Positions 4,675 to 38,015 of a stretch of DNA of 42,855 nt are shown here, piece after piece. The stretch covers positions 1 to 42,855 of the forward strand of contig CANJNZ010000038.1 of NCBI GenBank assembly GCA_947476045.1, written 5' to 3'. A program made the translations under genes and the position numbers. The notes beneath the pieces were generated by a model. The model made no database searches and was not told where the DNA came from. It was given only the letters and a program-made list of their open reading frames with translations. Position 1 is the stretch's first letter; each line of letters begins with the position of its first letter. This DNA is from Chthoniobacteraceae bacterium (lineage in GTDB: Bacteria; Verrucomicrobiota; Verrucomicrobiia; Chthoniobacterales; Chthoniobacteraceae).

Positions 4675-4696
4675 GCTAATCGCCGTGCGCGGCGTG
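4675..4696 (-). promoter_or_regulatory. Conserved late element, copy A
   Basis: Read on the minus strand this is CACGCCGCGCACG followed by GCGATTAGC, identical at 21 of 22 positions to copy B and 20 of 22 to copy C. Its 3' base is 35 bp upstream of the ATG at 4640 and it abuts the stop codon of the gene before it. On the plus strand CGCCG-TGCG-CGGCG also forms a small perfect inverted repeat. Proposed as a late promoter or activator site. Confidence 0.6.
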
Positions 4697-8366: not shown

Positions 8367-8368
8367 GA

Positions 8369-8725
8369 CTAGTCAATCACCAGTGCCGCGTAGCGCGTGG
8401 CCTTGATCGTGATGCCGCACTCCTTCTCGTTTTCGTAGTTCAGCGTCACATCGTCCACGAGCACGTTGGTGAGGTCCAGTATCGCGATAGCGTCGCCGCG
8501 TGCGGGCAGAGCAAAGCCGGTGTCGAAGATGGCCTTCAGCTCGCACTCGTTTTTCTCGTTGAAATACACGACGAGAAAGACGTTGCCCTTGCGGTTTTTG
8601 AGTTCGAGCTTGTCGCCGCCGAGCTGGTTGCTGGCGCTTTGGATGACGCCCACGTCTGTGTAGCCGACGTCTTCGGTGCCGAAGGCAATCGCGCCTGTTC
8701 CTTGGATTCTGTAGTTATCGGCCAT
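8369..8725 (-). CDS. Probable major tail tube protein
   Basis: A 118-residue, beta-rich protein (NVFLVVYFNEKNECELKAIF and ECGITIKATRYAALV among its strands) located just before the tail chaperone, where siphophage tube proteins are encoded. It is small for a tube protein but no other candidate lies in the block. No sheath gene accompanies it, which argues for a non-contractile tail. It starts 3 bp below the end of the gene upstream. Confidence 0.6.
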   Translation of the reverse strand: MADNYRIQGTGAIAFGTEDVGYTDVGVIQSASNQLGGDKLELKNRKGNVFLVVYFNEKNECELKAIFDTGFALPARGDAIAILDLTNVLVDDVTLNYENEKECGITIKATRYAALVID

Positions 8726-8728
8726 AGA

Positions 8729-8989
8729 TTAAACGGTGGGTTGGGTTGGTTGATTTTCGGGTGCAGGCGCGGCTTTCGGCGCGTTGCGCTTTTGTTCCTG
8801 TTCAAGGACCAGCGCGATTTCGGCGCGCTGGGCTTCAGTGAGTTTCTCCGGGTCGGCGACGGCGGCGACGAGCTTCCCGTCAATCGTGTGGATGTCCACA
8901 CTGCCGCCTTTGGCGAGGCCGTAGTTGCGGCGTCCGCGCGAGACTCCGGGTAAGTTGTTCTTTGCGTAGATGGTGAGTTTGTCGGACAT
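8729..8989 (-). CDS. Small phage protein in the tail block, unknown
   Basis: An 86-residue protein with a basic, possibly folded N-terminus (LTIYAKNNLPGVSRGRRNYG) and a charged helix with a Pro/Gln/Ala-rich tail. No known motif. Position between the Mu gp37-like and tube candidates suggests a minor structural or assembly role. The ATG is preceded by TAAAACATC rather than a Shine-Dalgarno sequence. Confidence 0.55.
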   Translation of the reverse strand: MSDKLTIYAKNNLPGVSRGRRNYGLAKGGSVDIHTIDGKLVAAVADPEKLTEAQRAEIALVLEQEQKRNAPKAAPAPENQPTQPTV

Positions 8990-8995
8990 GATGTT

Positions 8996-9478
8996 TTAGC
9001 GTGGTGAGTTAAAAGGGAGCGCGGCGCGCAGGTAGAAAGTCAGCTCGTAGGCATCGAGGTTGACGCCCTCGAATTTCGTCGGCTCGCAGCCGCCGTATTC
9101 CACGACGCCCTCGGTCTGCTTTTCGTCGGTCGGGAAGGAAAAGCTGCGCACGCGGTCGCGAACGCTGGCGACGCGCTTCATCAGCGGGTCTTCGTCGCCA
9201 CGGGCAACGCTGAGCTGCTTGCCCTGGACAACTGACAGCCCGCGATTCGCCGAGACGACAACCACGAAGCGGTGCTTCACGATGCCGCTGCGATGATGCC
9301 CCTCGATCGTTTCGGCGAGCCAGCCGAGGATGATGCGGAATTTCCCCGGTGCTTCGCCGAGCAGTTCGAGAATGTGAAACGGATCCGCCGCACGCGAAAA
9401 CTGCGCCGATTCATCCGCCGCGAAAGCGGTCAGGTCATCGGCGAGCAGATTAAAGAGTTCGTGGGCGTTGAGTGGCAT
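8996..9478 (-). CDS. Mu gp37-like tail completion/terminator protein
   Basis: A 160-residue protein directly after the DUF1320 (gp36) gene, the position of Mu gp37 (DUF1834-type). It reads HELFNLLADDLTAFAADESAQF at the N-terminus and ends in strands that include AYELTFYLRAALPF. The small alpha/beta layout fits tail terminator proteins. Assignment relies mainly on synteny with gp36 and the capsid genes. Confidence 0.6.
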   Translation of the reverse strand: MPLNAHELFNLLADDLTAFAADESAQFSRAADPFHILELLGEAPGKFRIILGWLAETIEGHHRSGIVKHRFVVVVSANRGLSVVQGKQLSVARGDEDPLMKRVASVRDRVRSFSFPTDEKQTEGVVEYGGCEPTKFEGVNLDAYELTFYLRAALPFNSPR

Positions 9479-9907
9479 TTAGCTGAGGCGGCGTCCGCCG
9501 GTGTCGAAAGTGGGTGATTTTTCCGTGACGAGGCTCGCGCTGGGTTTGGTGCGGGCGATGTTCGGGCCGAGCGGGAGCTTGCCGCTGGCGATTTTGCTGA
9601 GGAATCCGTTCGGGCCGAAATAGTCGTCGTATTGCGATTTGAACGGGTTCTGGTCGTTGGCCACTCCCCGCCGCGAATAGCAGCGGTAACAGGCCGCGAC
9701 CTTGGTCGCCTTGGTGACGATGGCGGGAAGGTCTCCCGTGAACGGCGCGGCGAATCGCAATCCGAGGATCGCATTTACCTCGCCGGCCGCATCGCTCTGG
9801 ACCGCATCCCACGCGTCAACAATGCCGTCGGCATCGTCGTCGAGTGCTTGAGTGAGAAAGCCCGGTGGGATTTCCCCCTCGATGTCGGCCAGAGCGATGT
9901 AGGCCAT
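9479..9907 (-). CDS. DUF1320 head-tail connector (Mu gp36-like)
   Basis: A 142-residue protein opening MAYIALADIEGEIPPGFLTQALDD, the usual DUF1320 beginning (a short helix-turn-helix pair with a 'Y-x-x-xxD' start), followed by VAACYRCYSRRG in the conserved helix. The family, typified by Mu gp36, sits after the major capsid gene and is thought to connect or complete the head. It starts 11 bp after the capsid stop and is followed directly by the gp37-like gene. Confidence 0.8.
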   Translation of the reverse strand: MAYIALADIEGEIPPGFLTQALDDDADGIVDAWDAVQSDAAGEVNAILGLRFAAPFTGDLPAIVTKATKVAACYRCYSRRGVANDQNPFKSQYDDYFGPNGFLSKIASGKLPLGPNIARTKPSASLVTEKSPTFDTGGRRLS

Positions 9908-9918
9908 CTGCGTGGCGA

Positions 9919-13751: not shown

Positions 13752-14227
13752 CGGTTAACGGTCCTTTTAAATTCCTCCATCGCCTTGAGCCGCGCAGCGC
13801 GGGCCTCGGCTGTCTCATTCCACTCGGCCTTCGCGGGCTGCCCGCCGGTCTGCGGCGCTGGCTCCGCGACTGCGCGGCGTTCGTTGTTGTGAAACCGCAG
13901 CTTTGGGTGCCACGCTTTGCGCTTCACCGCCTCCCGAGCGAGGCCGAGGCGTTCGTCAAAGGTCTGCCATTCGTCGCTCGCGCCGTGGTCGCCCATCAGT
14001 CGCCGCCAGCCAAAGGACGCTTCGTTGTAGCTGCATTTCTCCGCACGAATCTGCCAGCGCATGAACTCGATGACCGCCTCCATCTCCGCGAACGTGTAAG
14101 TCTCGCCGAAAATCGTGGCCTGCCGAAGCACCTGATCCGACGGGCGACGAAACTCGATGCCCGTCAGCTCCGCAAATACAGCCAGCACCTGCGCGCCGGT
14201 CGGTGGTGTTTCGTCGGCGGCTTTCAT
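13748..14227 (-). CDS. Phage protein of unknown function
   Basis: The 159-residue start at ATG 14227 overlaps the Pol X-like gene stop in ATGA; the longer frame above is a shadow. The core (FAEMEAVIEFMRWQIRAEKC then SYNEASFGWRRLMG) is helical and Trp-rich. It resembles proteins near replication functions in other transposable phages, but I cannot name a family. The C-terminus is charged and probably disordered. Confidence 0.5.
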   Translation of the reverse strand: MKAADETPPTGAQVLAVFAELTGIEFRRPSDQVLRQATIFGETYTFAEMEAVIEFMRWQIRAEKCSYNEASFGWRRLMGDHGASDEWQTFDERLGLAREAVKRKAWHPKLRFHNNERRAVAEPAPQTGGQPAKAEWNETAEARAARLKAMEEFKRTVNR

Positions 14228-14844
14228 GGGCGTTGATGCGGTTCTAAGTAAGGCAGTCCGACGATCTCGAATGCGTCGCGTTCGCAGCGAACGGTGCGCG
14301 AAAGCTGGCCGGTGCGCGGATTGAGAAAGCCGGCGCTGGTCGGGCTCCATTTCAAATTGCGCTCGATGGCGGCGTTGCAGATAGCCGTGTTACTGTCCTT
14401 GCCGCCGGTCCGGCACACGAGTTGGTTCCACCAATTCTCCATCGTGGCGGCGAAGAAATCCACGGGCAGCCCGGTGCGGACGTGCACAGCCAGGCGAATG
14501 GATTCTCCCCACGTCGCCGTGCCGTCGCACTTGAGTCGCTTGGCGAGCGTGCCGTTGCTGACCAGCCAATCGAGAGCCACATTGATTGCGCTCACCTTGC
14601 GCTCTTCTCCAAACAAACTCGTCGGGTCGGGTTCGAGGACCAGCTCCGGGATGTAAAGCAGCTCCAAGTCTTTCACGAGCGGCTTGCCCCGCCGCACGCT
14701 GCCCACGATGGCAATGCGCGGCCCCGTCGCCGTTTTCTCGCACCACTCCGCGAGCAGCCCGTGCAGCTCCTCAGCCACTTCAATGGCCACTGCACGCGGG
14801 AATCGCTTCGGCTCGGTCGCAGTTGGTTCGGCGATGGCGTTCAT
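14224..14844 (-). CDS. Pol X/Pol beta-like nucleotidyltransferase
   Basis: A 206-residue protein with the polymerase beta palm motif GSVRRGKPLVKDLELL (G48-S49, D59, E61) and a third acidic candidate, D129, in GLPVDFFAA. The downstream segment LVCRTGGKDSNTAICNAAIERNLKW matches the Pol X pattern of TGS-x-xHN...A-x-x-xG. The usual D-x-D is D-x-E here, which I recall seeing in phage members of this group, so activity is possible. There are no HhH or PHP domains, so it is a minimal enzyme. It might repair gaps made by transposition. It overlaps both neighbours by 4 bp. Confidence 0.7.
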   Translation of the reverse strand: MNAIAEPTATEPKRFPRAVAIEVAEELHGLLAEWCEKTATGPRIAIVGSVRRGKPLVKDLELLYIPELVLEPDPTSLFGEERKVSAINVALDWLVSNGTLAKRLKCDGTATWGESIRLAVHVRTGLPVDFFAATMENWWNQLVCRTGGKDSNTAICNAAIERNLKWSPTSAGFLNPRTGQLSRTVRCERDAFEIVGLPYLEPHQRP

Positions 14845-15095
14845 TCGGAAAGTTCAATCCACTCGCCCTCTTCTTCAAACTCAACGGCGGCGCCAATACC
14901 GGAGGCGATGGCGCGCATCTCGCGCTCGAAAGTCTCAGCATAGACAATCTGTGGAACCGGCTCTGGCGATTTCGGCGCGCTGCGCGAGATATACCATTGC
15001 GCCGAAGCGCTACCTGGGAGCGTTGCGAATTGAGCCTCGCAGGTAATTATGGGCGTCAACTCCGGCCATTTGAATATAGCGGTGATCTTTTTCAT
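14841..15095 (-). CDS. Small phage protein, unknown
   Basis: An 84-residue acidic protein (FEREMRAIASGIGAAVEFEEEGEWIELSE at the C-terminus). It has no recognised motif. It overlaps both neighbours by 4 bp, so translation appears coupled from the F-like gene through to the Pol X-like gene. Confidence 0.5.
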   Translation of the reverse strand: MKKITAIFKWPELTPIITCEAQFATLPGSASAQWYISRSAPKSPEPVPQIVYAETFEREMRAIASGIGAAVEFEEEGEWIELSE

Positions 15096-16744
15096 AGGAG
15101 AATGGAAAGCACTTCGCCGAGAGATTCAATAAACTCAGCAGCGTGCGGATTGAGCGTGGGATCTGTCTGGCGCGCCAGCTTCGCGGGATTGGCTAGCAGT
15201 TGCAGATGCCGGGTCGGGAGTTCGAGGCCGTCAGATGGCTTAGCATCCGAGCCTAGCAGTTTGTTGCCATCGTAAATGCGGCCCGCGTAAGCGTCATACC
15301 ATTTATCGCGCTTTCCGCTCCCTCTATATGGAACGAGCTGCACGATTTTTTCGCCGGCGGTGCGTTTATCGAAATGCGCTTTGAGGTTGGCTCGCCATTC
15401 GGCTGGCCCATGTAGATGTAGCCAGTGCGTCATCTCATGGAAAAGTGTTTCGCGCGCCCGGAGCGGGTCTGCATCCATCTTTAAGGCTGACTTGGAAAGT
15501 CGCAGTGTTTTCGCCCCAGGCTCGTATTCTCCGAGGAATCCCGACTTGTTGACGATCTCCATATTAAATGCAGGCAGATCCCGCGCGATGTCCGTCGGCA
15601 GCATAGTGAGAAAATCCTGCGCGTGGCTGCGGAGCGTTGCCGCGCTGAACTCGCCCGACTTGTCTGCGCCAGAAAAGCCAGTGATTTTTTCCGTGACCTT
15701 TACGGCTCCTGGCTTTGCAAGTGCGGCGATTAACTTTCCCGCATCGGTGGCAGTCCATGCGGCGGCACCTAGTCCTAGGTTCGATAATGTTTCCGCCCAT
15801 GTTTTCGCGGCGACTGGCGGTAATACAGGCGAGGCATCCGGTGGCAGGACCTTGGTGCCATTCATCCATTCCCACACGGTGAGCTTTTGATCGGGGAGTT
15901 GTTGCTTTTTCGCCCACTTTTCAAATAGCGCCCAGTCCTTTGGGTCGTGGCGGGATTGGATGGCGGCGGCGTCGAGGCGGAGATCGCCGGGGCGGAAGGT
16001 GTAGGCGTTGGGCTTGCCGCGTTCGGCGGGGCTGGCGACGCTGTAGGGCACGGGATGCCCGGTGCCGGTGGCGAGGTTCGACGGGCGGTAGATCACCCGC
16101 TCGTCGTTGAGCTTTTTGCGGTCGCCCTCGCCGAGGATGCTGCGCTGCTCGGGCGGCTTGCCGCGATCTGCGTCTTGGATCTCGGCGACATCGGCGTCGC
16201 TGAGCGGGATGAACTGGCAGCGGCAGCCCCAGTCCCACGGCGGCGTGTGCGTGGCCCAGAAAGGATCGTCGTGTGGGAGCACGATGCCGTCGAGCGCGGC
16301 GTGCGAGGGGCGGACGTTGCCGTCGCCTAGGGTCTGATATTTCCAGAACGGGAAAAGGTCGCGCTGTTCGTCGGCCTCGCGCCATGCGGCGGCGGCGTAG
16401 GCTTGCTGGCCGTGCGTGCGCAGCAGCAGCTCGGCGCGGCGCTCGGCGGCGTAGCGCTGTTTGCCCTGCGTCTCCGCGTCGGCCTCCGGGTCCACAAAGA
16501 ATGGATCGATGTCGGAGACGATTTGTTTTTTGAGCGTCTCCCAGTCGCCGCCCTCGGGTAGTGTCGCAATCGTGTCGCGCACCGAGGTGAGCACACCCAG
16601 CCCCTCGATGCCGGCAATCGTGAACGCCCGCGCCTTCAGCTCCGGCACGAGCTTGTCGAACACAGCACGCGAGACGGCGGGCTTGTTGCGTAGAAAAGCA
16701 GCGGCCTCCTCATGCGGCGTGGGTGCGAAAAGAAAAGTGGCCAT
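15092..16744 (-). CDS. Mu F-like head morphogenesis protein fused to an HExxH metallopeptidase
   Basis: A 550-residue protein. Residues about 95-180 hold the Mu F/SPP1 gp7 domain: the NVRPSHAALDGIVLP signature, DDPFW, and the terminal WDWGCRC motif. The C-terminal half (residues about 360-550) is a separate domain with HEMTHWLH at 436-443, the zinc-binding HExxH of metallopeptidases. F-like proteins bind near the portal and are minor head proteins that can be ejected; toxin or enzyme domains are often fused to them. In Mu, F directly follows the portal gene. Here it is 19 kb away on the other strand and directly follows the recombinase. Confidence 0.85.
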   Translation of the reverse strand: MATFLFAPTPHEEAAAFLRNKPAVSRAVFDKLVPELKARAFTIAGIEGLGVLTSVRDTIATLPEGGDWETLKKQIVSDIDPFFVDPEADAETQGKQRYAAERRAELLLRTHGQQAYAAAAWREADEQRDLFPFWKYQTLGDGNVRPSHAALDGIVLPHDDPFWATHTPPWDWGCRCQFIPLSDADVAEIQDADRGKPPEQRSILGEGDRKKLNDERVIYRPSNLATGTGHPVPYSVASPAERGKPNAYTFRPGDLRLDAAAIQSRHDPKDWALFEKWAKKQQLPDQKLTVWEWMNGTKVLPPDASPVLPPVAAKTWAETLSNLGLGAAAWTATDAGKLIAALAKPGAVKVTEKITGFSGADKSGEFSAATLRSHAQDFLTMLPTDIARDLPAFNMEIVNKSGFLGEYEPGAKTLRLSKSALKMDADPLRARETLFHEMTHWLHLHGPAEWRANLKAHFDKRTAGEKIVQLVPYRGSGKRDKWYDAYAGRIYDGNKLLGSDAKPSDGLELPTRHLQLLANPAKLARQTDPTLNPHAAEFIESLGEVLSILL

Positions 16745-16745
16745 C

Positions 16746-17690
16746 TTAAAGAGCGAGTGAGTGGCGATCCGGCGCGTAGTCGAGCGGGCTGATTCCTCGC
16801 GCCGCGTCCGCGTGCAAATAAATTGCTGTGGTGTTCAGGTCTTCGTGGCCGAGCAGTTCCTGCACGGTCTTGATGTCATTGCCGGCCCGCATCGCGTGCG
16901 TGGCGAAACCATGCCTCAATGTATGAGGAGTGATGCGCTTGATGATCCCCGCTGCCCTGGATGCTGCGCGCATCTGTTTCCCGATCATTTCATCCGTCGC
17001 GTGCCATCGGTATTGCCCGCGCTGGACAGACGATGGGAATAACCATTGCCAGCGGAACTCGCGGTTTGCGGATTTGTATTTCACGGCGAGGCGGCCTGGT
17101 AATTCCACCAGCCCGGCACCAGCGGCCGTGTCCATGTCGTGAACGGATTTCACCCATGCAATGTGCCTGCGCATCGCCGGAACCAGTAATTGCGGCAGCA
17201 GTGTCATGCGGCATTTATTTCCCTTTCCATCCCAAACGCGGATCGTGAGTGCATCTATATCCACATCCTGCACCCGCAGGCAGGTGCACTCATTGACGCG
17301 CAGACCGCCGCCATACATCAGCGCTGCCATCATCCTGGCCTGTCCGCTCATTCCCGCGAAGATACGTCCGATTTCCTCGCGTGTCGGGATCGTGCGCAAC
17401 GTCTGGCGGACTTTTGGCATCGGCGGCAGATTCAAATGACCCATCTCGCGCCGGAGAACATGGTCGAAGACAAATTTAATAGCGCAAAGCGCCTGCTTTC
17501 GCGAGACGGCGGAATAATTCTGATCGTGCAGTAGAACCATAAAGCCCCTCACAGATTCGCCGCTCCATTGGGAAGCCGGGACTTTGGCAAAAGCGTAGAA
17601 CTTGCGATGCCAGAAAGCATAGTTTCCCACCGTGCTTTTCCCCAGGCTCTGCATAATGGCTGCTTCCTTGAATTTGATCGTGAGGCTCAT
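16746..17690 (-). CDS. Integron-integrase-like tyrosine recombinase
   Basis: A 314-residue tyrosine recombinase with all catalytic residues visible: R131 (GGGLRVNE), K156 (DGKGNK), H256 and R259 (TPHTLRHGFATHA), H282 (LLGHED) and Y291. Between boxes I and II it has VELPGRLAVKYKSANREFRW followed by QWLFPSS (residues 195-221), the extra segment that marks integron integrases (IntI) among XerC/D relatives. No attC-like cassette sites were found in the genes upstream. Its stop lies 2 bp before the F-like gene. A transposable phage does not need a tyrosine recombinase to integrate, so its role is open: cargo capture, dimer resolution or domestication. Confidence 0.88.
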   Translation of the reverse strand: MSLTIKFKEAAIMQSLGKSTVGNYAFWHRKFYAFAKVPASQWSGESVRGFMVLLHDQNYSAVSRKQALCAIKFVFDHVLRREMGHLNLPPMPKVRQTLRTIPTREEIGRIFAGMSGQARMMAALMYGGGLRVNECTCLRVQDVDIDALTIRVWDGKGNKCRMTLLPQLLVPAMRRHIAWVKSVHDMDTAAGAGLVELPGRLAVKYKSANREFRWQWLFPSSVQRGQYRWHATDEMIGKQMRAASRAAGIIKRITPHTLRHGFATHAMRAGNDIKTVQELLGHEDLNTTAIYLHADAARGISPLDYAPDRHSLAL

Positions 17691-17716
17691 AATTTATAGC
17701 GACTCGGTTGGTTGAA

Positions 17717-18073
17717 TTAACTGTTCTGGCTATCGGGAGGAAGCGCGGGGCCGTGCCATTCGATCCCATCCCAGTGGTCGTCATTTGGGAAATGGAGATC
17801 GTGCTCAGTGCCAGTGTATGGATTCAGCCCCATCCAGCGGCCTGCCACTTCTCGCACTTTTACACACGTCCAGCCGAGTTTCCCTTTTGCCCAGAACCAG
17901 CCTTCTTCGCTTGGAGCTTGGAGTTTCGTCATATAGTTCTTTGCGCATTCGACCATTCGGCCCATCGCTTCCGCGAACTCGGGCGTCACGTCATTGAGGC
18001 CGGAGATGTGGACGCTGAAGCCAGAACCAGCGGGATGCAGGCAACGGCTCAAAGGTAGTGGTTCGTGTTTCAT
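17717..18073 (-). CDS. Hypothetical protein upstream of the integrase
   Basis: A 118-residue protein with many Trp and His residues (EEGWFWAKGKLGWTCVKVRE; HFPNDDHWDGIEWHGPALPP). No known family. It lies 26 bp upstream of the integrase start and 5 bp below the next gene, so the three seem to share a transcript. It is one of the candidates for a gene brought in with the recombinase. Confidence 0.5.
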   Translation of the reverse strand: MKHEPLPLSRCLHPAGSGFSVHISGLNDVTPEFAEAMGRMVECAKNYMTKLQAPSEEGWFWAKGKLGWTCVKVREVAGRWMGLNPYTGTEHDLHFPNDDHWDGIEWHGPALPPDSQNS

Positions 18074-18077
18074 AAAG

Positions 18078-18494
18078 TCATTCGCTCGCCGTCGCCTGAT
18101 CCGCGGCGTTCTGCCTGAAGTTCATCGCCTCCAGTCGGCAGTGAATCCAGTATGTGCCAGACTCCCTGCAACTGTTCTCGCGAGGGTCAGCAGCCTTCGC
18201 GTCATACTCCATGACGAGCGCGTCATTGTAGCCTCGCGAGCTACTGAACGGAGCTTTACACCATCCCAGCAATGACCAACCTTGTTCGAGCGTGAACAGC
18301 GAGCCTCGCGGATCGTCGGCATACGGGCGATGATCGCAGAAGGGCCAGAGCGGAACGTGGTTTTCCTTGGACAGGGACGCAGCGCGAGAGAATCGCGACA
18401 CAAGAGCCGTGACATTACACTCGAGGGCAGAACAATTTGCTGCACTCAACGGAGCGGGCTTCTTGGTCGTAGAGGTAGATTTTCGTTTAGCCAT
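18078..18494 (-). CDS. Hypothetical protein
   Basis: A 138-residue protein with a basic Ser/Thr/Lys N-terminus (MAKRKSTSTTKKPAPLS) and six cysteines spread through the rest, some next to Trp (LLGWCKAPFSSSRGY; GTYWIHCRLEAM). I recognise no family. It lies between a Zn-ribbon-like gene and the Trp-rich gene, in the same orientation. Confidence 0.5.
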   Translation of the reverse strand: MAKRKSTSTTKKPAPLSAANCSALECNVTALVSRFSRAASLSKENHVPLWPFCDHRPYADDPRGSLFTLEQGWSLLGWCKAPFSSSRGYNDALVMEYDAKAADPRENSCRESGTYWIHCRLEAMNFRQNAADQATASE

Positions 18495-18497
18495 ATT

Positions 18498-18791
18498 CTA
18501 TTCCTTCGGTTTAGTTTTCTCGCCGCCCACTCCGTGAGTGAGCAAGACGTGCGAAAAATCCCGGCTCTCGCCGAGTCTCGCCGATAGTGCCGTTGCGTTT
18601 TCTTTCGTCGCGCGCGGCGATGGCGCGGCGATTTCGGCCACGGGCATATTTGACCCTTTCCGAATCGTGACTTCGCCTGGCTTCGGCGTCGGGCAAAAGT
18701 AAAGTGTGCGTCCGCCGGGCGTGATGCGCGCTTTATGCACGATGCGGCACCACGGGCATGTTGCTTTGATGGAACGGGCAAAGGCTTTCAT
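18498..18791 (-). CDS. Small zinc-ribbon-like phage protein
   Basis: A 97-residue protein from ATG 18791; the longer open frame above is a shadow. The N-terminus holds CPWCRIVHKARITPGGRTLY then FCP, a CxxC...C pattern suggestive of a treble-clef or Zn-ribbon with one ligand missing. The rest is low complexity. A nucleic-acid-binding role is a guess. Confidence 0.5.
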   Translation of the reverse strand: MKAFARSIKATCPWCRIVHKARITPGGRTLYFCPTPKPGEVTIRKGSNMPVAEIAAPSPRATKENATALSARLGESRDFSHVLLTHGVGGEKTKPKE

Positions 18792-18799
18792 CGGATCAA

Positions 18800-19222
18800 T
18801 TATAGTGCGGCGGAGTAGCGGGCGCGGCGGGCTTCGTTCCAGAACTCGGGGTCGGCCTGCACGGCGGCGAGGTGATCGAAGTAGCTGTGCAGGTTGATGA
18901 GCCAGCACGACGGCGTGGGCTGGCTGCCAGTGATGAATTTCGCGGTGAGCAGGCGGCGGAGCACCCAGTAATCCACGTCGAGGATGCGGGCGGCTTCGCT
19001 GATGCGCATGTTTCGCTCGTGGATGCGGACGATGGGCTTGTAGGTGCCGTCGCCGGCGGGCTGCCAGTCGCAGATGCCGATCATGGGGATGAGATCGCGC
19101 GGGGCGTCCACGACTTTGCGCGTGACGGCATCGGGCGCGACGCGGATGGCGCGTTTTTCGGGCAGGACGATCACGGCGTTGGTGAGCGTCTGGGCTGTGG
19201 ATGGTGCGAGTGCGGCGGGCAT
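18800..19222 (-). CDS. Possible excisionase/MerR-type DNA-binding protein
   Basis: A 140-residue protein from ATG 19222. Residues about 72-118 (RISEAARILDVDYWVLRRLL then TAKFITGSQPTPSCWLIN) have the winged helix-turn-helix form of excisionase-like domains: a helix pair, a short wing and a Trp-anchored strand. It lies in a row of small regulators after Gam, where Mu carries small regulatory genes. DNA binding is inferred from pattern only. Confidence 0.5.
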   Translation of the reverse strand: MPAALAPSTAQTLTNAVIVLPEKRAIRVAPDAVTRKVVDAPRDLIPMIGICDWQPAGDGTYKPIVRIHERNMRISEAARILDVDYWVLRRLLTAKFITGSQPTPSCWLINLHSYFDHLAAVQADPEFWNEARRARYSAAL

Positions 19223-19224
19223 GT

Positions 19225-19560
19225 TCAGGCGGTGGCGAGTTTGAGTTCTGGCTGGCAAAGCGGGGCGCGGGCGGCGCGCTGGCGTTCGGCGAAGAGGTCG
19301 CGGGCCTCGTCGTCAGCGAGTGCGCGGTAGCGGCCTTCGCGGGCGGGCGTGGAGTCATCCACGAGCGACACGAGGCCGAGGTGGCAGAGGTCGGTGGTGC
19401 GCGGGCGGAAGGTGAGCAGGTCCATGCCGCTGCGCTGCGCGACTTCGCGAGTCGTGCCGGGGCCGTGATTGCGCCAGCCGTTGAGCGCACGGAGCAAGTC
19501 GGCGTGCAGCCGCTCTTGCAGCGATTCCCAAGTTTCGTCGCGGTAGTCTATGGGCTTCAT
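19225..19560 (-). CDS. Winged-helix DNA-binding-like protein
   Basis: A 111-residue protein whose middle (GPGTTREVAQRSGMDLLTFR then PRTTDLCHLGLVSLVDDSTP, ending in REGRYRAL) has the winged-helix pattern: a helix with TTREVAQ, a recognition helix, 'LGLV' and a wing. Its start overlaps the previous stop in ATGA. Probable early regulator; the target is unknown. Confidence 0.55.
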   Translation of the reverse strand: MKPIDYRDETWESLQERLHADLLRALNGWRNHGPGTTREVAQRSGMDLLTFRPRTTDLCHLGLVSLVDDSTPAREGRYRALADDEARDLFAERQRAARAPLCQPELKLATA

Positions 19561-19763
19561 CGGAGAGATTTCGCGGCCTCCGTCATTTTGAGAATGTGCT
19601 CCGTATTGAGCCCGGTGATGAAAGTGGAGTCGTCGCGCTGGTCGCCCTGGTCGCGATGGAGCGTCCAGACGGCGTTGCCTGCGCTGTCCATCCCACGCAC
19701 TAGACGAAGCGGCTGGCCGTAAATGGTCTGGCCAAGATCGTATTCGATTTTCGTCGGCTTCAT
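19557..19763 (-). CDS. Small phage protein, unknown
   Basis: A 68-residue protein (MKPTKIEYDLGQTIYGQPLR at the N-terminus) of mixed beta/alpha character and no known motif. It overlaps both neighbours by 4 bp. The upstream neighbour and this gene appear translationally coupled. Confidence 0.5.
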   Translation of the reverse strand: MKPTKIEYDLGQTIYGQPLRLVRGMDSAGNAVWTLHRDQGDQRDDSTFITGLNTEHILKMTEAAKSLR

Positions 19764-20284
19764 GCTGCATTCCTCCGTTTCGCGGTGCCGCGATTGTTGA
19801 TCGTGAAGGTGAGATTCCAGAGCTGCTTTGCGGTCGCGTCGGCGAGGGCGCAGCGGAACTGGCGTTTGCAGATTGCGGCGGCGTAGGCTTCCGGGAGGCG
19901 GGCGTTTCTGAGGGCTTCGCGAAGTTTGAACATCGCCAGGCGTTTCGGCTCGGTGCCGTGGTCGAGCTGGGCTTTGAAGGCGCGGCCGCTTTCGCCGACG
20001 AGGCCGAGGAAGTGGGCGAGCAGCAGCTTGTAGTCATCCTGCACGCAGGCGGTGAGGCCGGGCTTGCCGGTGGCCACTTTCACCTGCTCGTGGCGAAACT
20101 CGCTTTTGTCGCACGCGGAATCCATGCCGCCCTGTTTGTCCCAAGCCTCGTCGCTGAGGATGCAGAGCTGCGCTTTTTGCTGATTGCTCAACGGCCCGCC
20201 GAGGCGCTGCGGTGGCAGCGGGCGCGGTGCAGGCGCGGCTGCCGTGCTGCGGAATGCGGTGCGAGTGTTGAGCGTGTAGCGCAT
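19760..20284 (-). CDS. Early-region phage protein, possible GemA-position regulator
   Basis: A 174-residue protein with a Pro-rich N-terminus, then a helical domain containing LSNQQKAQLCILSDEAWDKQ and CVQDDYKLLLAHFLGLVGE. It ends in TFTINNRGTAKRRNAA. Similar domains occur in early regions of transposable phages near the place of GemA (gp16), but I cannot claim a family match. It starts 4 bp after the small membrane protein gene. Confidence 0.5.
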   Translation of the reverse strand: MRYTLNTRTAFRSTAAAPAPRPLPPQRLGGPLSNQQKAQLCILSDEAWDKQGGMDSACDKSEFRHEQVKVATGKPGLTACVQDDYKLLLAHFLGLVGESGRAFKAQLDHGTEPKRLAMFKLREALRNARLPEAYAAAICKRQFRCALADATAKQLWNLTFTINNRGTAKRRNAA

Positions 20285-20288
20285 GGCT

Positions 20289-20456
20289 TTAGAGCGAGAA
20301 GACGAGGGTGAAAAAGAGCCAGCCGACGAGGGCGAGCGCTATGCCCGCCGCGAGGTAGCCGAGCTGCCGCAGCCACCACGCGGCACGCCCGCCGCCGTGC
20401 AGGCTGTGCGTGCGGCGGGTGCGGCGGATGGGCAGGCTGTTGAAAACGCGGATCAT
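20289..20456 (-). CDS. Small membrane protein, 55 residues
   Basis: A short ORF filling the gap after gam: ATG at 20456, TAA at 20289-20291. The first 30 residues are basic (MIRVFNSLPIRRTRRTHSLH). The last 20 or so form one transmembrane segment (YLAAGIALALVGWLFFTLVF), so it should be a single-pass inner-membrane protein with a cytoplasmic basic N-terminus. The tight fit (3 bp after gam, 4 bp before the next gene) supports it as real. Confidence 0.6.
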   Translation of the reverse strand: MIRVFNSLPIRRTRRTHSLHGGGRAAWWLRQLGYLAAGIALALVGWLFFTLVFSL

Positions 20457-20459
20457 GGC

Positions 20460-21041
20460 TTAGGCGACTTTGGTGGCGATGGTGGTGTCGGCCTGTCCTT
20501 CGCGGGCGGGGTCGAGGTAGAAGGTCTCGCTCTGCGCGATCTCGCAGCCGATGGTTTCCAGCTCGGCAGCGGCGGTCGCGCGGGTGTCGTCGTCGGGGCT
20601 TTCGAGCAGACGGCCCGTGGCGAGCACGGTCTCCTTATCGAGTTCGGTTTTTACCCGGAGGAATTTCTTCGCGAGGTCGCCGCCGATGTCCTTGATGGTC
20701 TTAATGACGGCCTTGAAGGTGAGCTTGCCGGCGGGTTTCACAGTCGGGTTTCCGTAACGGTAGCCGATGCGGTGAGTGTTGATGACGAGCGAGCGAGCAT
20801 CGCCAAATTCGACTTCGTTCGCGTCGGCCCATTGTTCGAGCAGCGTCAGGTTGGTTTCCATCTCCTCGCCGAGTTCGTCAATTTCAGTGCCGTGTTTTTT
20901 GTTCACGGCAAGCAGCTCGGCGTCGCGCTTGGCGACGAGGGCTTCGCGGCGGATTTGCGCGGCGACGGTTTCGTTGACGACGCGCTCGACTTCGGCGCGG
21001 GACTTGAGGACGGGTTTAAGGATCTTGAGTTTAGTGGCCAT
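20460..21041 (-). CDS. gam: Host-nuclease inhibitor Gam
   Basis: A 193-residue protein of the Mu Gam family (a Ku-like DNA-end-binding protein). It has a long N-terminal coiled coil (SRAEVERVVNETVAAQIRRE) followed by the core LEQWADANEVEFGDARSLVI and GYRYGNPTVKPAGKLTFKAV. Mu Gam binds linear DNA ends and protects them from exonucleases; its place in the early operon after MuB is canonical. Spacing to the gene upstream is 10 bp or less on the same strand. Confidence 0.9.
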   Translation of the reverse strand: MATKLKILKPVLKSRAEVERVVNETVAAQIRREALVAKRDAELLAVNKKHGTEIDELGEEMETNLTLLEQWADANEVEFGDARSLVINTHRIGYRYGNPTVKPAGKLTFKAVIKTIKDIGGDLAKKFLRVKTELDKETVLATGRLLESPDDDTRATAAAELETIGCEIAQSETFYLDPAREGQADTTIATKVA

Positions 21042-21279
21042 GTGTATTTTCTGTTGGTGTTTTGTCTTCTAGGAATTGGAGGCGGGGGATGCGGTTGAGT
21101 TCTTCCGCGAGGCATACGTCGGCGACATCCGCTGAATTTCTGCCGATAAGGTGGGCAGTTTCGGCGGTTGCCATCGCGATGGAGCCGGGGATCGCCGCGA
21201 TGTAGTAAGCGCGCCATTGCCCGGCGTGTCGGAACCGCATGTCGGATGTGACATCGGCGTTGGTGAGCGGGTTAGCCAC
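21031..21279 (-). CDS. Small phage protein, unknown
   Basis: The 82-residue reading starts at GTG 21279, overlapping the end of the AP2-like gene by 8 bp; an ATG at 21240 is the alternative. The sequence MRFRHAGQWRAYYIAAIPGS and ADVCLAEELNRIPRLQFLED show no known motif. Its stop overlaps the gam start region. Confidence 0.45.
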   Translation of the reverse strand: MANPLTNADVTSDMRFRHAGQWRAYYIAAIPGSIAMATAETAHLIGRNSADVADVCLAEELNRIPRLQFLEDKTPTENTHGH

Positions 21280-21574
21280 GGCTGGCCTCCTTTCGCTGCA
21301 AGCGGGTGCGGGGCATCGCGAGCTGGCGGGGTAGCACGAGGGCCTCGTGGCTGGCGCGCAGTTGCATGGCGCGGGCGAATGCTTCGTCGCGGCCAAGGCG
21401 CTCGATGTTGAACCGGCGCTGGTGTGGCGTGACGACGAAGACGCGGACGGGCTTGCGGTCCGACGGGCAGTAGATCGTCTCGGTGATGCCGACGACTCCG
21501 GTGTTGTTGCGCGCGGAGCTGAGCTTCACGAACTCGGTCGCGCCGTGGGCTTTTTTGCCGTTGATCTTGTTCAT
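21272..21574 (-). CDS. AP2-like DNA-binding protein
   Basis: A 100-residue protein. ARNNTGVVGITETIY, then a VRVFVV strand and FNIERLGRDEAFARAMQLRA follow the bacterial/phage AP2 pattern: NxxGVxGV, three strands, and a helix with EAFxxA. Phage AP2 domains bind DNA and often accompany endonucleases or integrases; here it stands alone after MuB, overlapping it by 4 bp. Function in transposition or regulation is inference. Confidence 0.6.
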   Translation of the reverse strand: MNKINGKKAHGATEFVKLSSARNNTGVVGITETIYCPSDRKPVRVFVVTPHQRRFNIERLGRDEAFARAMQLRASHEALVLPRQLAMPRTRLQRKEASRG

Positions 21575-22572
21575 CGGGATGCGACCTCCTCTTGAATGGC
21601 GGCGCTGAATAGCTCCTGGGTGAGCGCGGCGGGTGAGTGTTTGTCTTTCGCTTTTTCTGCGACGCGGGAAAGCACATCGCGGACGAATGCAAAGCGGCCA
21701 TATTTCGGCGCGTGGTGCAGGATCGCGTTGGTCACGAGGTCGCGCAGCTTTTCATCGGTGAGGCCGGTGCGGCGCTCGACGAGTAGCCGCACGTCGCGCG
21801 GGCGCATTTCCTTGCCGAGGTTGACGCGGTCGGCGAGGCGATTACCGGTGAGCTGCTTGGCCTCTTCGTAGGCTTTGGTCTCCAGCTTGGCCCAGAGCGT
21901 ATCGATCGCGATGATGATGAACTCGCCGGGCGTTTCGTTGACGAGCGTCTTGACGAGGTTCAGGCACTTCGGCCCGAGGTGATGGCCTTCCTCGATGATG
22001 AGACAGCGGCGGGTGTCGTTGAGCAGCTCGGTGACTTTGTGCAGGCGCTCGACGCCCATCGTGGGCACGTTGCGCACGCCGAGGCAGCGCAGGATTTCGC
22101 CGAGCATCGCACCGGGTGAATCGTTCCACGCGACGTTGGCCTCGACGAGGGCGAGCCGCGAGCCGTAGCGGGTGCAGAGCGTGCGACGGGCGCTGGTCTT
22201 GCCGCTGCCCGACGGGCCGAGGACGAAGATCACGCGGGCGTTGCCGTTCTCCTTTTTCGTTTCGAGAAAGGCGCGCTTGAGCGCGAGGGCCGGGCCGAGG
22301 TCGTCGTAAAGTTCCTCTTCCTCGGCTTTCTCGTCGCCGATGGATTCGATCCACGCGACGGCGGCTTCGTAGTTCGCGAGCTGCTTTTCGAGATCGAGTT
22401 CCTTGAGGTCCTCGACCAGGATGCGCGTGAAGGTTTTCGAGCTGCCGACTTGCGGGACCTGCTTGACGAGCCCCTCGGTGCTGAGCTGCTTGGCCTTTTG
22501 CCACTCTTGGATCTTGCGAGCCAGGGCGACGAGGCGCTTGGCCTCCATCGTTTCGTAAAGTTCGGGAGCCAT
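21571..22572 (-). CDS. MuB-like AAA+ ATPase, transposition target selector
   Basis: A 333-residue AAA+ ATPase with Walker A GPSGSGKTS (residues 119-127) and Walker B LIIEE (191-195) in CLIIEEGHHLG. An N-terminal helical region of about 90 residues could be the HTH that binds DNA in MuB. MuB binds target DNA, activates the transposase and gives target immunity. Here it lies downstream of the transposase but is separated from it by a DGQHR gene and a small ORF. It overlaps the AP2-like gene by 4 bp. Confidence 0.9.
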   Translation of the reverse strand: MAPELYETMEAKRLVALARKIQEWQKAKQLSTEGLVKQVPQVGSSKTFTRILVEDLKELDLEKQLANYEAAVAWIESIGDEKAEEEELYDDLGPALALKRAFLETKKENGNARVIFVLGPSGSGKTSARRTLCTRYGSRLALVEANVAWNDSPGAMLGEILRCLGVRNVPTMGVERLHKVTELLNDTRRCLIIEEGHHLGPKCLNLVKTLVNETPGEFIIIAIDTLWAKLETKAYEEAKQLTGNRLADRVNLGKEMRPRDVRLLVERRTGLTDEKLRDLVTNAILHHAPKYGRFAFVRDVLSRVAEKAKDKHSPAALTQELFSAAIQEEVASR

Positions 22573-22573
22573 G

Positions 22574-22855
22574 TTAGCTGCAAGCCTCCACTTTGACGAT
22601 GCCGTCGTCGGGTTGCGGGACTTCCGAGCCGTGGCAGGGCTCGGCGGTGAAGCCGATGACGTTGCCGACGGACGGCACGGGCGGCTGATTGAGCTGCGCC
22701 AGGGCGTGCGAGCCGATGTGGCTGGCGAGGTCGCTGGCGGTGGTGGCGAGTTGCGCGAGCTTGAGCGCGACGTAGGCGTTGAAGCCTTCGCGGTCGAGTT
22801 CCTCGGCTTGGTCGAGGATTTGCCGGAGTTCGGCGAATTGTGGTGTGTGGTTCAT
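22574..22855 (-). CDS. Small phage protein, unknown
   Basis: A 93-residue protein from ATG 22855; the frame above that codon is a shadow of the DGQHR gene end. The N-terminal 50 residues are helical (QFAELRQILDQAEELDREGF) and the C-terminus is loose and acidic. It lies between the DGQHR gene and MuB with gaps of 5 bp and 1 bp. Confidence 0.5.
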   Translation of the reverse strand: MNHTPQFAELRQILDQAEELDREGFNAYVALKLAQLATTASDLASHIGSHALAQLNQPPVPSVGNVIGFTAEPCHGSEVPQPDDGIVKVEACS

Positions 22856-22860
22856 GGGGT

Positions 22861-23643
22861 TTAGGCAATTACAGGGAAAGCCTCGGGGTTTTCTCCGACC
22901 TCTCGGAAGCGCAGGCTCTTGATTGTTTTTCCCGCCCGACTGAAATTCCATGCCTTGATCAGGATGGCGGCTAGATAATCATCGGTGACTTTAGCTTTCG
23001 CCAGTGAGTTGGTCAGCAATCGCTCGCGCAAAAGGTATATCGGGTCGCCCTCGTTTAGCCCCACCCCCGTGAGTAGCTTATCTACAAATTTATTCGCAGC
23101 GGAGGCGTCTTTTTTGGAGAACAAGTAATGATACGCCGTGAGGTATGCCCTTGAGATCAGCCTCCTGGTATCGCCGCAAAGTAGCACGGAGTCTCGAATG
23201 CCCGGGTGTTTTTCGGCCAGTTCGACTATTTGGTTGTTGCTGTATGTAACGTGCTTCCCGACCCGTCCAGTTAGGTAAAGATCGACCTGTTGCAGTGCTG
23301 CGGCGGTGGCCTTGCACTGCTTGTAACCCTTGAACGCCAGAATGTCCGCCCCGTTCCACTTCTTACCGATCCCCTTTGTGCGGATCACCTCCGGGTCCAA
23401 GTCATCTACAATTATACATTCTATCGGCACTCCCGATCTGATGATCGCGTGCAGCCGGTGCTGGCCGTCAATCAGTCTTTCCGTGCTTAGGCAAATGGTG
23501 TCGCCATTCTGCATCCACTCGCCCTCTCGCATTGCCTTGGTATATTCTGCCACCTTGGCGTTATTTATGGGCCGGTTGTTTGTATTCTTCGCCAGAATCT
23601 CTTCGGCGAGTTTTGGTGTAATTAGCTTTGTGTGTGTTTTCAT
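22861..23643 (-). CDS. DGQHR-motif (ParB-like fold) protein
   Basis: A 260-residue protein with LIDGQHRLHAIIRSG (DGQHR at residues 59-63), the signature of a ParB/Srx-related family seen in phages and mobile elements, preceded by YTKAMREGEWMQNGDTICL. The rest is helical. Its base composition looks more AT-rich and its codons differ from the flanking transposition genes, which suggests it came in separately. It splits the normally adjacent transposase and MuB genes. DNA- or nucleotide-binding is inferred; the target is unknown. Confidence 0.7.
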   Translation of the reverse strand: MKTHTKLITPKLAEEILAKNTNNRPINNAKVAEYTKAMREGEWMQNGDTICLSTERLIDGQHRLHAIIRSGVPIECIIVDDLDPEVIRTKGIGKKWNGADILAFKGYKQCKATAAALQQVDLYLTGRVGKHVTYSNNQIVELAEKHPGIRDSVLLCGDTRRLISRAYLTAYHYLFSKKDASAANKFVDKLLTGVGLNEGDPIYLLRERLLTNSLAKAKVTDDYLAAILIKAWNFSRAGKTIKSLRFREVGENPEAFPVIA

Positions 23644-23671
23644 GGTTGTGCGTTTTTTGTGCTGGGGAAAA

Positions 23672-25684
23672 TCAGATGGGCATCAGCTCGCCGGCGTCCT
23701 CGCGTTCGAGGGCGGCGATGCGGGCGGCGTCGGCATCGGGGTCGAGCGTTCGCTGCGGGGTGCGTGGAGTTGCTTGCCGCGCCGCCGCTTCACTGGGCTC
23801 GCTGTTGCGGCCGCCCTCGACGGCGGACGCGGCAAAATTGGCGGACCGGTTGCCCCAGCCGTCGCGGCTCTCGGTGCGGCGGACGATGGGCGTCCCGGCT
23901 TTGGTGATCGCGCGGAACTCCGTGCGGACGGCGGCGTTCGCATTTTTCCGTGCGTGAAATTCGCGCTCGTGCGGGGCGAGATTGAATTGCGGGGTATCAA
24001 TCGCGAGCGGGGCGGTGAGCATGTGCTCGCCGAAACGGAAGCCGTCGCGGTTGCGCTCGTTTTCGCCCTCGGCGTTGAAGACGTGGCAGCCTTCCTCGGG
24101 GCGTCCAGGATGAAAGGCGATCAAGATGTGGTGCCCGTGCTGCAAGTAGAGGTCGGCGACTGCGCCATTCACGCGGAAGCGGAAGGGCAGCGGGTAGTGG
24201 TCCACGACGCACTCGATGTGGCCCTGGCGCACGGTGGCCTCGCGCTTCACGGGGCAGAGCCTCCATCGCTCGCCAGCGGGCACCTCGCGGCGCGGGGCGG
24301 TTTGAAAGAGGTCAGACGGCACGACGGGCGCGCGACCGTGGGCACGGCGTTTTTTCGGGCGCTGGTTGAAAGCGATCATCGCCCCGACGAGTCCGTCGGC
24401 AGCGGTGGCGATGTCCCAGAAATGCGCAGCGGCATCGGCGTCGCCCTTTTGAGCCTTGAGGAAAAGAGACGTGGCACGCTCGAACTCGCCGCGACTGCGA
24501 CCGATGCTCGTGCTTTCGTGGGCGATGATGTCTTGCAGCAGATTGAACGACGACTCGATCAGCCCCTTGCCGCGCGATTTGAAGACGAACTGAATGCGGA
24601 AGAGCTTGTCCAGCCCGCCCCACCGTTTCTCGCGGCCTTCGATGGCGACGCCTTTGACAAATTCGTTCTCCCACACGCCGCGCTCCAAGCGCCACACGAG
24701 CGGCATTCCGTGCGCTTCGAGGCAACCGGCCATGTGGTCGGCGATGTCCTCGACGCGGTAGGCGTCGCGCGGCCTTCCGAGCGGCTGGCCTGCGAGCCAG
24801 AAGGCGGAAAACACGTCAATCGTATTGAGCGTCTGGCGGCCCATGCGCAGCGCGCCGGTCTCGGGGTCGCCGAAGCGGAACGGCTCATTCAGCGACATAT
24901 CGTCGGACTCCCACACGGTATTCGGCGCGAGCATGGCGCGGGTGCCGTCCTCGGCGACGTAGAACATTCCGCGACGTTCGGCGTGCTCGACATTCTGAAA
25001 GCTCTTTTCGCCACGGAAAAGCGCGCGCTCTTCATCGGAAATGGCACCTGCACGACGCAGGCTCACGGGCCAGCTCGGCACGCGGCGCTCGCGGGCGGCG
25101 CGATCCAGCTCGGACAAAATCAGGGCGCGGGTCGCCGGGGTGCAGGCGGCATTGCGCGGGAACCACTCGACGGCGAGCGCGAAGGAATTGCGCTTGAGGT
25201 TTTCGAGACGCAGCGCGTTTTTCTCGTCGGGGGAAAGCACGAATTTGATCGGGCGTCCAGTGCTGATGCTCGGCTTGAGCGCCTCGGCCCCGCCTTCGCG
25301 GAATGCCTTCATGTAGCGGCAGAGATTCGCGACCGGCTCGCCGAGCGTCTGCGCGGCTGCGTTCAGCGTGGCGCCGCCGCGCTCTCCGACGCGCATTTCG
25401 AGGCAATGCCGCACGAGTTCCTGACGCCGCTGCCATTCGGCGAGCTGGAAGTCGGTCGAGTGGTCAAAGGTCTCTCCCGCCGCTGGTGTCGAACCGTCCG
25501 CACCCGGCGAGACAGTGCAGGTGCCCTCGGATTCGGCGGGAGAAATTTCGTCGGCGGGGAAGACGCCGTCCGCAGAAACCTCATCGAAGGTGTCTAGACT
25601 TTCGATCCCGTCTGCGGACGGCGCTTTTGTTCCCCCCAGAACGCGTGAGTCGGCGTGTGCCGAAAATGATGATGGTCGGATCAT
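23672..25684 (-). CDS. MuA-like DDE transposase
   Basis: A 670-residue transposase. Start ATG 25684 overlaps the preceding stop (ATGA). The first 75 residues are acidic and low complexity, then comes an HTH region (about 80-130, LNAAAQTLGEPVANLCRYMK). The catalytic core has D261/D262 in VWESDDMSLNEPF and E377 in KGLIESSFNLLQD. The second acid lies in WRLERGVWENEF, where E334 stands at the place expected for Asp. A C-terminal Mu-type domain follows (about 440-590), ending in a disordered tail that would contact MuB. It makes the phage transposable by copy-paste replication. Confidence 0.92.
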   Translation of the reverse strand: MIRPSSFSAHADSRVLGGTKAPSADGIESLDTFDEVSADGVFPADEISPAESEGTCTVSPGADGSTPAAGETFDHSTDFQLAEWQRRQELVRHCLEMRVGERGGATLNAAAQTLGEPVANLCRYMKAFREGGAEALKPSISTGRPIKFVLSPDEKNALRLENLKRNSFALAVEWFPRNAACTPATRALILSELDRAARERRVPSWPVSLRRAGAISDEERALFRGEKSFQNVEHAERRGMFYVAEDGTRAMLAPNTVWESDDMSLNEPFRFGDPETGALRMGRQTLNTIDVFSAFWLAGQPLGRPRDAYRVEDIADHMAGCLEAHGMPLVWRLERGVWENEFVKGVAIEGREKRWGGLDKLFRIQFVFKSRGKGLIESSFNLLQDIIAHESTSIGRSRGEFERATSLFLKAQKGDADAAAHFWDIATAADGLVGAMIAFNQRPKKRRAHGRAPVVPSDLFQTAPRREVPAGERWRLCPVKREATVRQGHIECVVDHYPLPFRFRVNGAVADLYLQHGHHILIAFHPGRPEEGCHVFNAEGENERNRDGFRFGEHMLTAPLAIDTPQFNLAPHEREFHARKNANAAVRTEFRAITKAGTPIVRRTESRDGWGNRSANFAASAVEGGRNSEPSEAAARQATPRTPQRTLDPDADAARIAALEREDAGELMPI

Positions 25685-25869
25685 GAGAGTGAAAACATGG
25701 AGCCGTGCGGATTGCCTACCGACCAAGGCTGGGTTGCATTCTGCCGCCATTGCAGCACCGCCCATCGCTGTGTGACGCGGGCTTTTCCGCAGCGAAATTC
25801 CGCCTTGCCGTGCGTAAGCACGACTTGCGGGATGCCAGCGGGCGGCGTGATGGGCGGGATCTGGTTCAT
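25681..25869 (-). CDS. Small phage protein, unknown
   Basis: A 62-residue protein (KARVTQRWAVLQWRQNATQP in the middle) directly before the transposase, overlapping it in ATGA, and starting immediately after the upstream stop. No motif recognised. The position resembles small early genes of transposable phages that tune transposase expression, but that is only context. Confidence 0.5.
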   Translation of the reverse strand: MNQIPPITPPAGIPQVVLTHGKAEFRCGKARVTQRWAVLQWRQNATQPWSVGNPHGSMFSLS

Positions 25870-26139
25870 TTAGCGCATGAAGGCGAATGCCTCGGCGAGA
25901 CGGGCGCGCTGGGCGCGCTGGGCGCGGTTGGCTTTGAGTTTGATGCCGCGAACTTTGGAGTAGCGGTGGGCTGGCCTTGGCACGTCGCGGCCCCGGTCGT
26001 GTTTCGGCAGCCACCAGAATGGAGGGCGGCTTTCCGCAGCGTCCGGTTTAACTGCCGCGACGCAGCCAGAAGTTGCCGAGCCGTAAATGGAAGCGGCGAG
26101 CGCTAGTGAAATGCGAATGAGTGAGCGGAATGGTTTCAT
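25870..26139 (-). CDS. Small probable lipoprotein or secreted protein
   Basis: An 89-residue protein from ATG 26139, 8 bp after the ParB-like stop. The first 26 residues form a basic-then-hydrophobic signal ending SATSGC, a possible though imperfect lipobox. The rest is basic (KVRGIKLKANRAQRAQRARL). An envelope protein in an early operon could alter superinfection, but there is no direct evidence. Confidence 0.45.
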   Translation of the reverse strand: MKPFRSLIRISLALAASIYGSATSGCVAAVKPDAAESRPPFWWLPKHDRGRDVPRPAHRYSKVRGIKLKANRAQRAQRARLAEAFAFMR

Positions 26140-26146
26140 GTGTAAA

Positions 26147-34503: not shown

Positions 34504-34506
34504 TCT

Positions 34507-37927: not shown

Positions 37928-38015
37928 AGTCCGTGCGGCATACGCGAGGCGCGGGCACGGTGGCAAGCGTGCGCCGTTGACGCCCCGCGTTTGCCCACGT
38001 AAATCCGCGCCTCTC

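Follow-up and report, generated by a model that had tools for sequence, protein, structure and literature searches.

Integrons are gene-capture devices of bacteria, and their cassette open reading frames (ORFs) usually run opposite to the integrase gene, intI. The window that we analysed, a stretch of 42,855 nucleotides on contig C38 of the 4.37-Mb genome G000, raises the question of what an integron-integrase-like gene is doing in the middle of a Mu-like transposable phage: does it serve an integron that belongs to the phage, or another task altogether? The original prediction described an integron-integrase-like recombinase, and both the extent of the ORF and its assignment to the IntI-type tyrosine recombinases proved correct.

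16746–17690, minus strand: intI, phage-clade integron integrase, 314 aa (ORF, profile match, tree)

The top NCBIfam match of the window IntI is the integron integrase model TIGR02249 (260.6 bits, E 2e-77, nearly full length), at a score 4 bits below the curated cut-off of 265; the next matches are another integron-integrase model (175.8 bits), an XerA-type model (143 bits) and XerC (128 bits). Among solved structures, the integron integrase of Vibrio cholerae, 2a3v, is the best match (E 3.5e-49); the window protein shares with it homology over residues 15–299, the catalytic set and the core of the IntI-specific segment, or patch. As predicted, the catalytic set is complete (R131, K156, H256, R259, H282 and Y291), and these residues are invariant across an alignment of five clade members. 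The predicted patch is also present (ELPGRLAVKY..FRWQWLFPS), but it is ~6 residues shorter than that of 2a3v, and the RHH motif appears as RWH, with W in place of the first H. Among three members of the clade (L019, L119 and L124), dN for intI is 0.11–0.14 and dS is 1.3–2.3, the latter being near saturation, and dN/dS is about 0.05–0.09, indicating purifying selection on intI. The same genome encodes a second, ordinary IntI (417 bits) on contig C95 (847–1779), around which a repeat search revealed no apparent attC array.

Alignment scans of IMG/VR identified 13 contigs that encode relatives of the window IntI at 48–67% identity, with the next ones at ≤42%. One of these contigs (L020) is a near-copy of another (L019), and L122 matches a prophage of the related genome G016 with 100% identity over 19.8 kb; hence, we count 13 distinct members, the window included. 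The IMG/VR scans used short peptide patterns, and one alignment scan kept 80 of 527 loci, such that the clade has at least 13 members. Scans with the single protein yielded one locus in IMG/VR and two in genome contigs, the latter two as matches of only 27 residues. In a tree of 65 rows, the 13 members form one clade (support 100/100) on the IntI side of a branch, also with 100/100 support, that separates IntI from Xer. The patch columns were removed for a second tree of 55 rows, which included 10 of the 13 members and 21 other phage recombinases; with a rough bootstrap and long branches, it left the clade on the IntI side. The original prediction had named placement outside IntI as the outcome that would count against it; with the clade on the IntI side in both trees, with or without the patch columns, that outcome did not occur. 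An AU test of a position within bacterial IntI against a position as sister to all bacterial IntI gave a p-value of 0.31. In 387 genomes of the phylum, no other match exceeded 289 bits, as compared with 594 bits for the window protein, and among 97 related genomes only G016 has a clade member (48% identity). For INPHARED (50,697 records), identity was ≤37.5% among the matches listed (40 of 164). Judging from these comparisons, the clade appears to belong to uncultured phages, roughly half of which are Mu-like, and to be known from phages only.

The predicted placement of the recombinase amid Mu-like early and head genes is borne out by its neighbours.

15092–16744, minus strand: Mu F-like minor head protein, encoded immediately downstream of intI (E 7e-19)
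18800–19258, minus strand: conserved phage gene beyond the distal end of the array (with homologues in L019 and L122)
20460–21041, minus strand: Mu Gam-like protein (E 2e-16)
21571–22572, minus strand: MuB-like ATPase (phrog_296, E 2e-15)
23672–26014, minus strand: distant MuA-like transposase (homologues match phrog_310)
34507–36063, plus strand: Mu portal protein (E 6e-66)

Major head, protease and tail genes were also found in the window. The only direct family match of the ORF at 23672–26014 is a weak HTH, and it has no match in the PDB or INPHARED; three of four scanned homologues match the phrog_310 transposase (E 5e-6 to 3e-8). The combination of MuA, MuB, Gam and Mu head genes, with MuA recognised solely through distant homologues, points to a Mu-like transposable phage. 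The window shares MuB, Gam, Mu F, portal and head genes with bacteriophage Mu, but its terminase-like and portal genes (32900–36063, plus strand) lie at the far right end, on the opposite strand and away from Mu F and the head genes, a placement from which the gene order of Mu differs; to our knowledge, Mu itself has no IntI. Homologues of MuA, MuB or Gam are encoded in L017, L019, L119, L120, L122 and L124, making seven of the 13 members Mu-like, the window included. At E 1e-4, homologues of the window MuA, MuB and Gam are absent from contigs L018, L116, L117, L118, L121 and L123 (scanned up to its last 1.1 kb); L118, one of these six, carries a terminase homologue. A single tyrosine recombinase was counted in 11 of the 13 records, and two in each of L018 and L123. 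In the window, L019/L020 and L122, intI stands between the homologue of the gene at 18800–19258 and Mu F; the gene after intI differs from Mu F in L017, L119 and L124. Between the window and L019, intI is the best-conserved gene (59% identity), other matches being at 24–48%.

Several further features of these contigs are worth recording. The contig of L019 holds a 26% homologue of the window transposase, and its far end (21001–26179) encodes a second, closer homologue with 47% identity over 496 aa. A polymerase-beta-like nucleotidyltransferase is encoded near intI in the window (14224–14844), directly after intI in L017 (10975–11577), and upstream in L116 and L118. Bacterial-type genes at 37917–41518 of the window (cytochrome c, PQQ propeller) are the host side, to the right of the prophage. 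We found no Rfam match and, using ARAGORN, no tRNA in the window.

An integron has an attI site next to intI, and we identified a candidate in the window.

17691–17725, minus strand: attI-like site (AAC of the R box at 17723–17725; conservation and homology break)

A conserved block of ~35 bp, AACAGTGTATTGAACAAACCCGGTTCGGATTAA or near, is located directly before intI in 13 of 13 clade members, 22–83 bp upstream of the assumed intI start in all of them, and represents a putative attI. Unrelated genes just upstream of intI in L019, L119, L123 and L124 share a similar C-terminal peptide (NSVLNKPGSD-like) because of this conserved block, and in the window the site supplies the stop codon of the last cassette ORF (AAC AGT TAA). 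Between L119 and L124, similarity of 79% extends through intI from a point 7 bp ahead of the AAC box; by contrast, the two do not align in the 1.8 and 3.4 kb immediately upstream. Similarly, the alignment of L019 with L124 starts 2 bp before the AAC box. This breakpoint, together with the conservation of the block, argues for a putative attI next to intI. A 20-nt matrix detected one strong attI-like copy per contig (22–33 bits), with the next best at ≤14.4 bits except in L123. The second attI-like site of L123 (22.8 bits) is at 34089 of the joined contig (record ~5912) and is accompanied by two cassettes, with no clade intI detected next to it. A 20-nt pattern made for the attI-like site matched seven stretches in IMG/VR, four of which are known clade contigs; the three others have no IntI within the 4–9 kb examined and were taken as chance matches. 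Among 213 genomes of the order, the window was the only match. This pattern misses the site in the G016 prophage, indicating that it is too strict.

Upstream of the attI-like site, the window has two predicted attC sites.

18021–18114, minus strand: attC1 (R1 29.8 bits, E 2e-6; generic finder; fold)
18427–18555, minus strand: attC2, distal, with intact hairpin and degenerate left R box (TTCGCAC) (R1 23.8 bits, E 1e-4; fold)

The first textbook attC was spotted by eye in L122, after which a finder located attC ahead of the attI-like site in most members. The covariance model, R1, was made from 27 finder-found attC sites, with the window excluded, and was run on the window with filters off. A search of this kind had been suggested in the original prediction, and it returned attC1 and attC2 as two good sites; there were 21 matches up to E 10 in the 42.9-kb window, with the third at 13.2 bits (E 0.14, R1 E-values being rough). 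The generic attC finder, at the thresholds used, matched attC1 as its sole site in the window. R1 detected three attC in L019, which is outside the training set (44, 43 and 29 bits), two additional attC in L118, and a single weak attC in L119 (17.3 bits, E 0.06). Overall, a clear attC lies upstream in 11 of 12 testable members, nine of the 11 being training loci; L117 was left out of this count, its contig starting 106 bp before the attI-like site. When R1 was applied to the window's own genome, we observed at least five weak matches on other contigs (best 31.6 bits; 150 of 4,557 candidates scored, and the window's own attC not among the matches listed). The strict finder identified only one site in TJE1, a phage with published attC, indicating that it misses many attC. 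Two nearly identical attC (9810–9915 and 10609–10714 of L198) precede two L018 cassettes, a pattern that duplication of a cassette would produce.

All 10 pairs of the inner stem vary on both sides in some attC sites, and stem covariation is 0.486, as compared with 0.154 for shuffled and 0.05–0.13 for slid alignments, although these pair counts lean towards structure because the finder that picked the sites wants paired arms. A bulged T is present in all 27 aligned attC, and the second bulged base is C in 18 of them. Several attC, including attC2 of the window, fold with two bulges 6 bp apart in the 3' arm of the intI-sense strand; attC1 of the window and the attC of L121 fold less regularly. 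The predicted sites thus have the paired R and L boxes and the bulged bases of attC.

In integrons, the boxes at the two ends of a cassette are complementary, and crossover occurs at AAC/GTT (G/TT). The two window cassettes have such ends.

17723–18027, minus strand: cassette 1 body, 305 bp (complementary ends GTTCTGGCT ... AGCCAGAAC, 9 nt)
18108–18433, minus strand: cassette 2 body, 326 bp (complementary ends, 8 nt)

Complementary end boxes (7/7) were observed at 16 of 17 junctions in six phage loci: 2/2 in the window, 3/3 in L019, 6/6 in L118, 4/4 in L124, 1/1 in L122, and 0/1 in L119, where complementarity is 5/7. End complementarity of ≥9 nt combined with attC arms of ≥12 was found at seven of the 13 attI-like sites, as compared with three of 3,991 other AAC in the same contigs. 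A loose chain search (6 nt) fired at 83 of 780 random AAC; because of this noise, we relied on the stricter counts. The predicted phage cassettes thus follow the end rule of integrons, and, as judged from the attC sites and the cassette ends, what the window contains is a phage-resident integron with two cassettes. The distal attC2 is without a proper left R box, suggesting that the outer cassette may be locked.

Three small ORFs occupy the region between intI and the conserved phage gene.

17717–18073, minus strand: cassette 1 ORF, 118 aa, with its start in attC1 and its stop in attI (no homologue found)
18078–18494, minus strand: cassette 2 ORF, 138 aa, with its start in attC2 and its stop in attC1 (no homologue found)
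18498–18791, minus strand: short ORF of 97 aa at the array's distal end (read from sequence)

The genes at 17717–18791 had been proposed to be cassettes, partly on account of an unusual composition. The difference in composition is real (~55% GC in the stretch, ~65% in the flanks), and the proposal holds for 17717–18494, where there are attC bounds and the cassette-end rule applies. Of 23 phage cassettes, 21 have their longer ORF in the same direction as intI and two in the reverse direction (the L118 and L019 rows of the finder table were dropped from this count). Hence, the phage cassettes do not have the classical layout, in which ORFs point away from intI and attC follows the stop codon. 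An ORF that covers ≥60% of the cassette and crosses the AAC box is present in 26 of 35 cassettes, a count for which L118, L019 and one L124 row were recoordinated using the covariance model or finder, and the second window cassette was added. In all 26 box-crossing ORFs the AAC of the box is read as a codon, as compared with 82 of 166 AAC in ten phage genes of the window (probability 1e-8 if cassettes were independent). Seventeen of these ORFs have their ATG within the cassette's own attC. The stops of the box-crossing ORFs are found 6–168 nt beyond the box, usually in the following attC or attI. The other nine cassettes have no long box-crossing ORF in an open frame: eight are without such an ORF, and one, at 35999–36257 of L116, terminates in a different frame at a TAA within the box. 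A Pfam scan of 10 cassette-region proteins identified two clear DNA methylases (C5 in L123 and N6/N4 in L124) and a marginal methyltransferase in L120; the remaining content is mostly small proteins without an assigned function. A pattern scan of IMG/VR detected no relatives of either window cassette protein, and the 118-aa protein has no relative in 57 genomes other than its own.

We compared the phage arrays with a bacterial chromosomal integron from the same family as the window's host, on contig C27 of G016. The two share IntI, the type of attC and its orientation relative to intI, and the end rule (4/5 junctions in the host array). By contrast, host cassette ORFs run opposite to intI in 5/5 intervals, whereas those of the phages mostly run along it, and, unlike cassettes of bacterial integrons, phage cassettes often start in the attC and have no stop of their own. 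We know of no bacterial cassettes that follow a rule of fixed frame across the crossover. The phage model R1 matches chromosomal attC in this array (16662–22599) with scores of up to 61 bits, and the two kinds of attC may be able to replace each other.

Qi et al. 2023 (PMC9892861) screened 10,705 phages and report three complete integrons and one In0 in temperate phages, one of them a subset of the array of its V. anguillarum host, as well as 17 attC clusters; they also show that class 1 IntI uses phage attC. That work and ours have in common integron parts in phage genomes and methyltransferase cassettes, but the phage integrons it describes are of bacterial type or attC clusters, whereas the window IntI belongs to a clade known only from phages, with its own putative attI. 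Inversion of a whole Vibrio array is described in PMC11023631. Searches of the open-access literature by titles and openings of abstracts turned up neither a phage-specific IntI clade nor integrons carried by Mu-like phages, and no cassettes with a locked frame. Outside the clade, Virus Rctr41k (KX853513) has a gene annotated as xerD (4680–5678) that encodes an IntI, followed downstream by five attC (6641–9434) with the end rule at 4/4 junctions, apparently another phage integron; the main text of Qi et al. does not contain the name Rctr41k. For other IntI loci on viral contigs (L021–L096, L125–L130), at least two attC lie within 8 kb in 17 of 82. Cassettes of L083 also run along intI, and those of L129 run in the classical direction.

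The tree, the attC sites and the end rule support the main interpretation of the original prediction, and we are highly confident that the locus is a small integron belonging to the phage, in which IntI would recombine cassettes at the box beside its own gene. Phages are usually integrated by tyrosine recombinases, and a conserved site lies right at the gene, which would also be expected if the enzyme were a Xer-like or attP/attB-type integration or resolution enzyme and the site its att or operator; moreover, six of the 13 members are without homologues of the window MuA, MuB and Gam, and only L018 and L123 among these six have a second tyrosine recombinase. However, Mu-type genes are present in seven of 13 members including the window, and attC hairpins and the cassette-end rule are unexpected of an attP site, making such a role very improbable. 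Equally improbable is that the site is a mere ribosome-binding or operator element of intI and the upstream differences ordinary phage mosaicism: the site does overlap the upstream ORF at its end and intI at its start, but homology breaks 2–7 bp before the AAC box, and this box is complementary to the GTT box on the opposite side of the cassette, a GTT box that ends an attC hairpin. The original prediction had offered re-use of the enzyme in head-proximal DNA processing as its second idea. Despite the position of intI directly before the Mu F gene in the window, L019 and L122, this idea gained no support and is scarcely credible, since another gene follows intI in L017, L119 and L124 and the conserved DNA is upstream and attI-like.

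A decayed relic, that is a former integron now carried as fixed cargo with an inactive recombinase in this prophage, would account for the degenerate outer R box of attC2, for the presence of just two cassettes and for cassette proteins without detected homologues; given the degenerate left box, part of this prophage's array may indeed be fixed. We nevertheless consider a relic unlikely. The intI gene is intact, with all catalytic residues, and its family is under purifying selection; and the array regions of L119 and L124 differ, yet their intI genes are 77% alike in DNA.

We propose the following model for the phage integron. IntI would be produced together with the middle genes of the phage, bind the attI-like site at 17691–17725 and folded single-stranded attC, and insert or remove circular cassettes at the AAC/GTT box adjoining intI. 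Since cassette ORFs have the same direction as intI and the head genes, the phage operon could read them, and we expect that it transcribes them. The typical mobile unit would comprise an attC and a coding body that has no stop; its start codon would often lie in the loop of the attC. With the stop provided by the next attC or attI, a cassette placed beside a new neighbour would stay in frame, and translation of neighbours may be coupled. We think it likely that these arrays represent an integron lineage owned by phages and a new format of cassette, in which stop-less, in-frame cassettes each have an attC that provides their own start and the stop region of the preceding gene, such that shuffling would always be readable in a viral operon. 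The benefit to the phage would be the exchange of small accessory genes, some of them for DNA methyltransferases.

The integron at this locus would thus be a permanent component of virus lineages, equipped with its own integrase clade, docking site and cassettes, and it would give phages a dedicated route for swapping accessory genes, methyltransferases among them. The same type of attC in a host of the same family suggests that the viral and chromosomal pools of cassettes may be connected, and the rule of a fixed frame across the crossover lends itself to direct testing.
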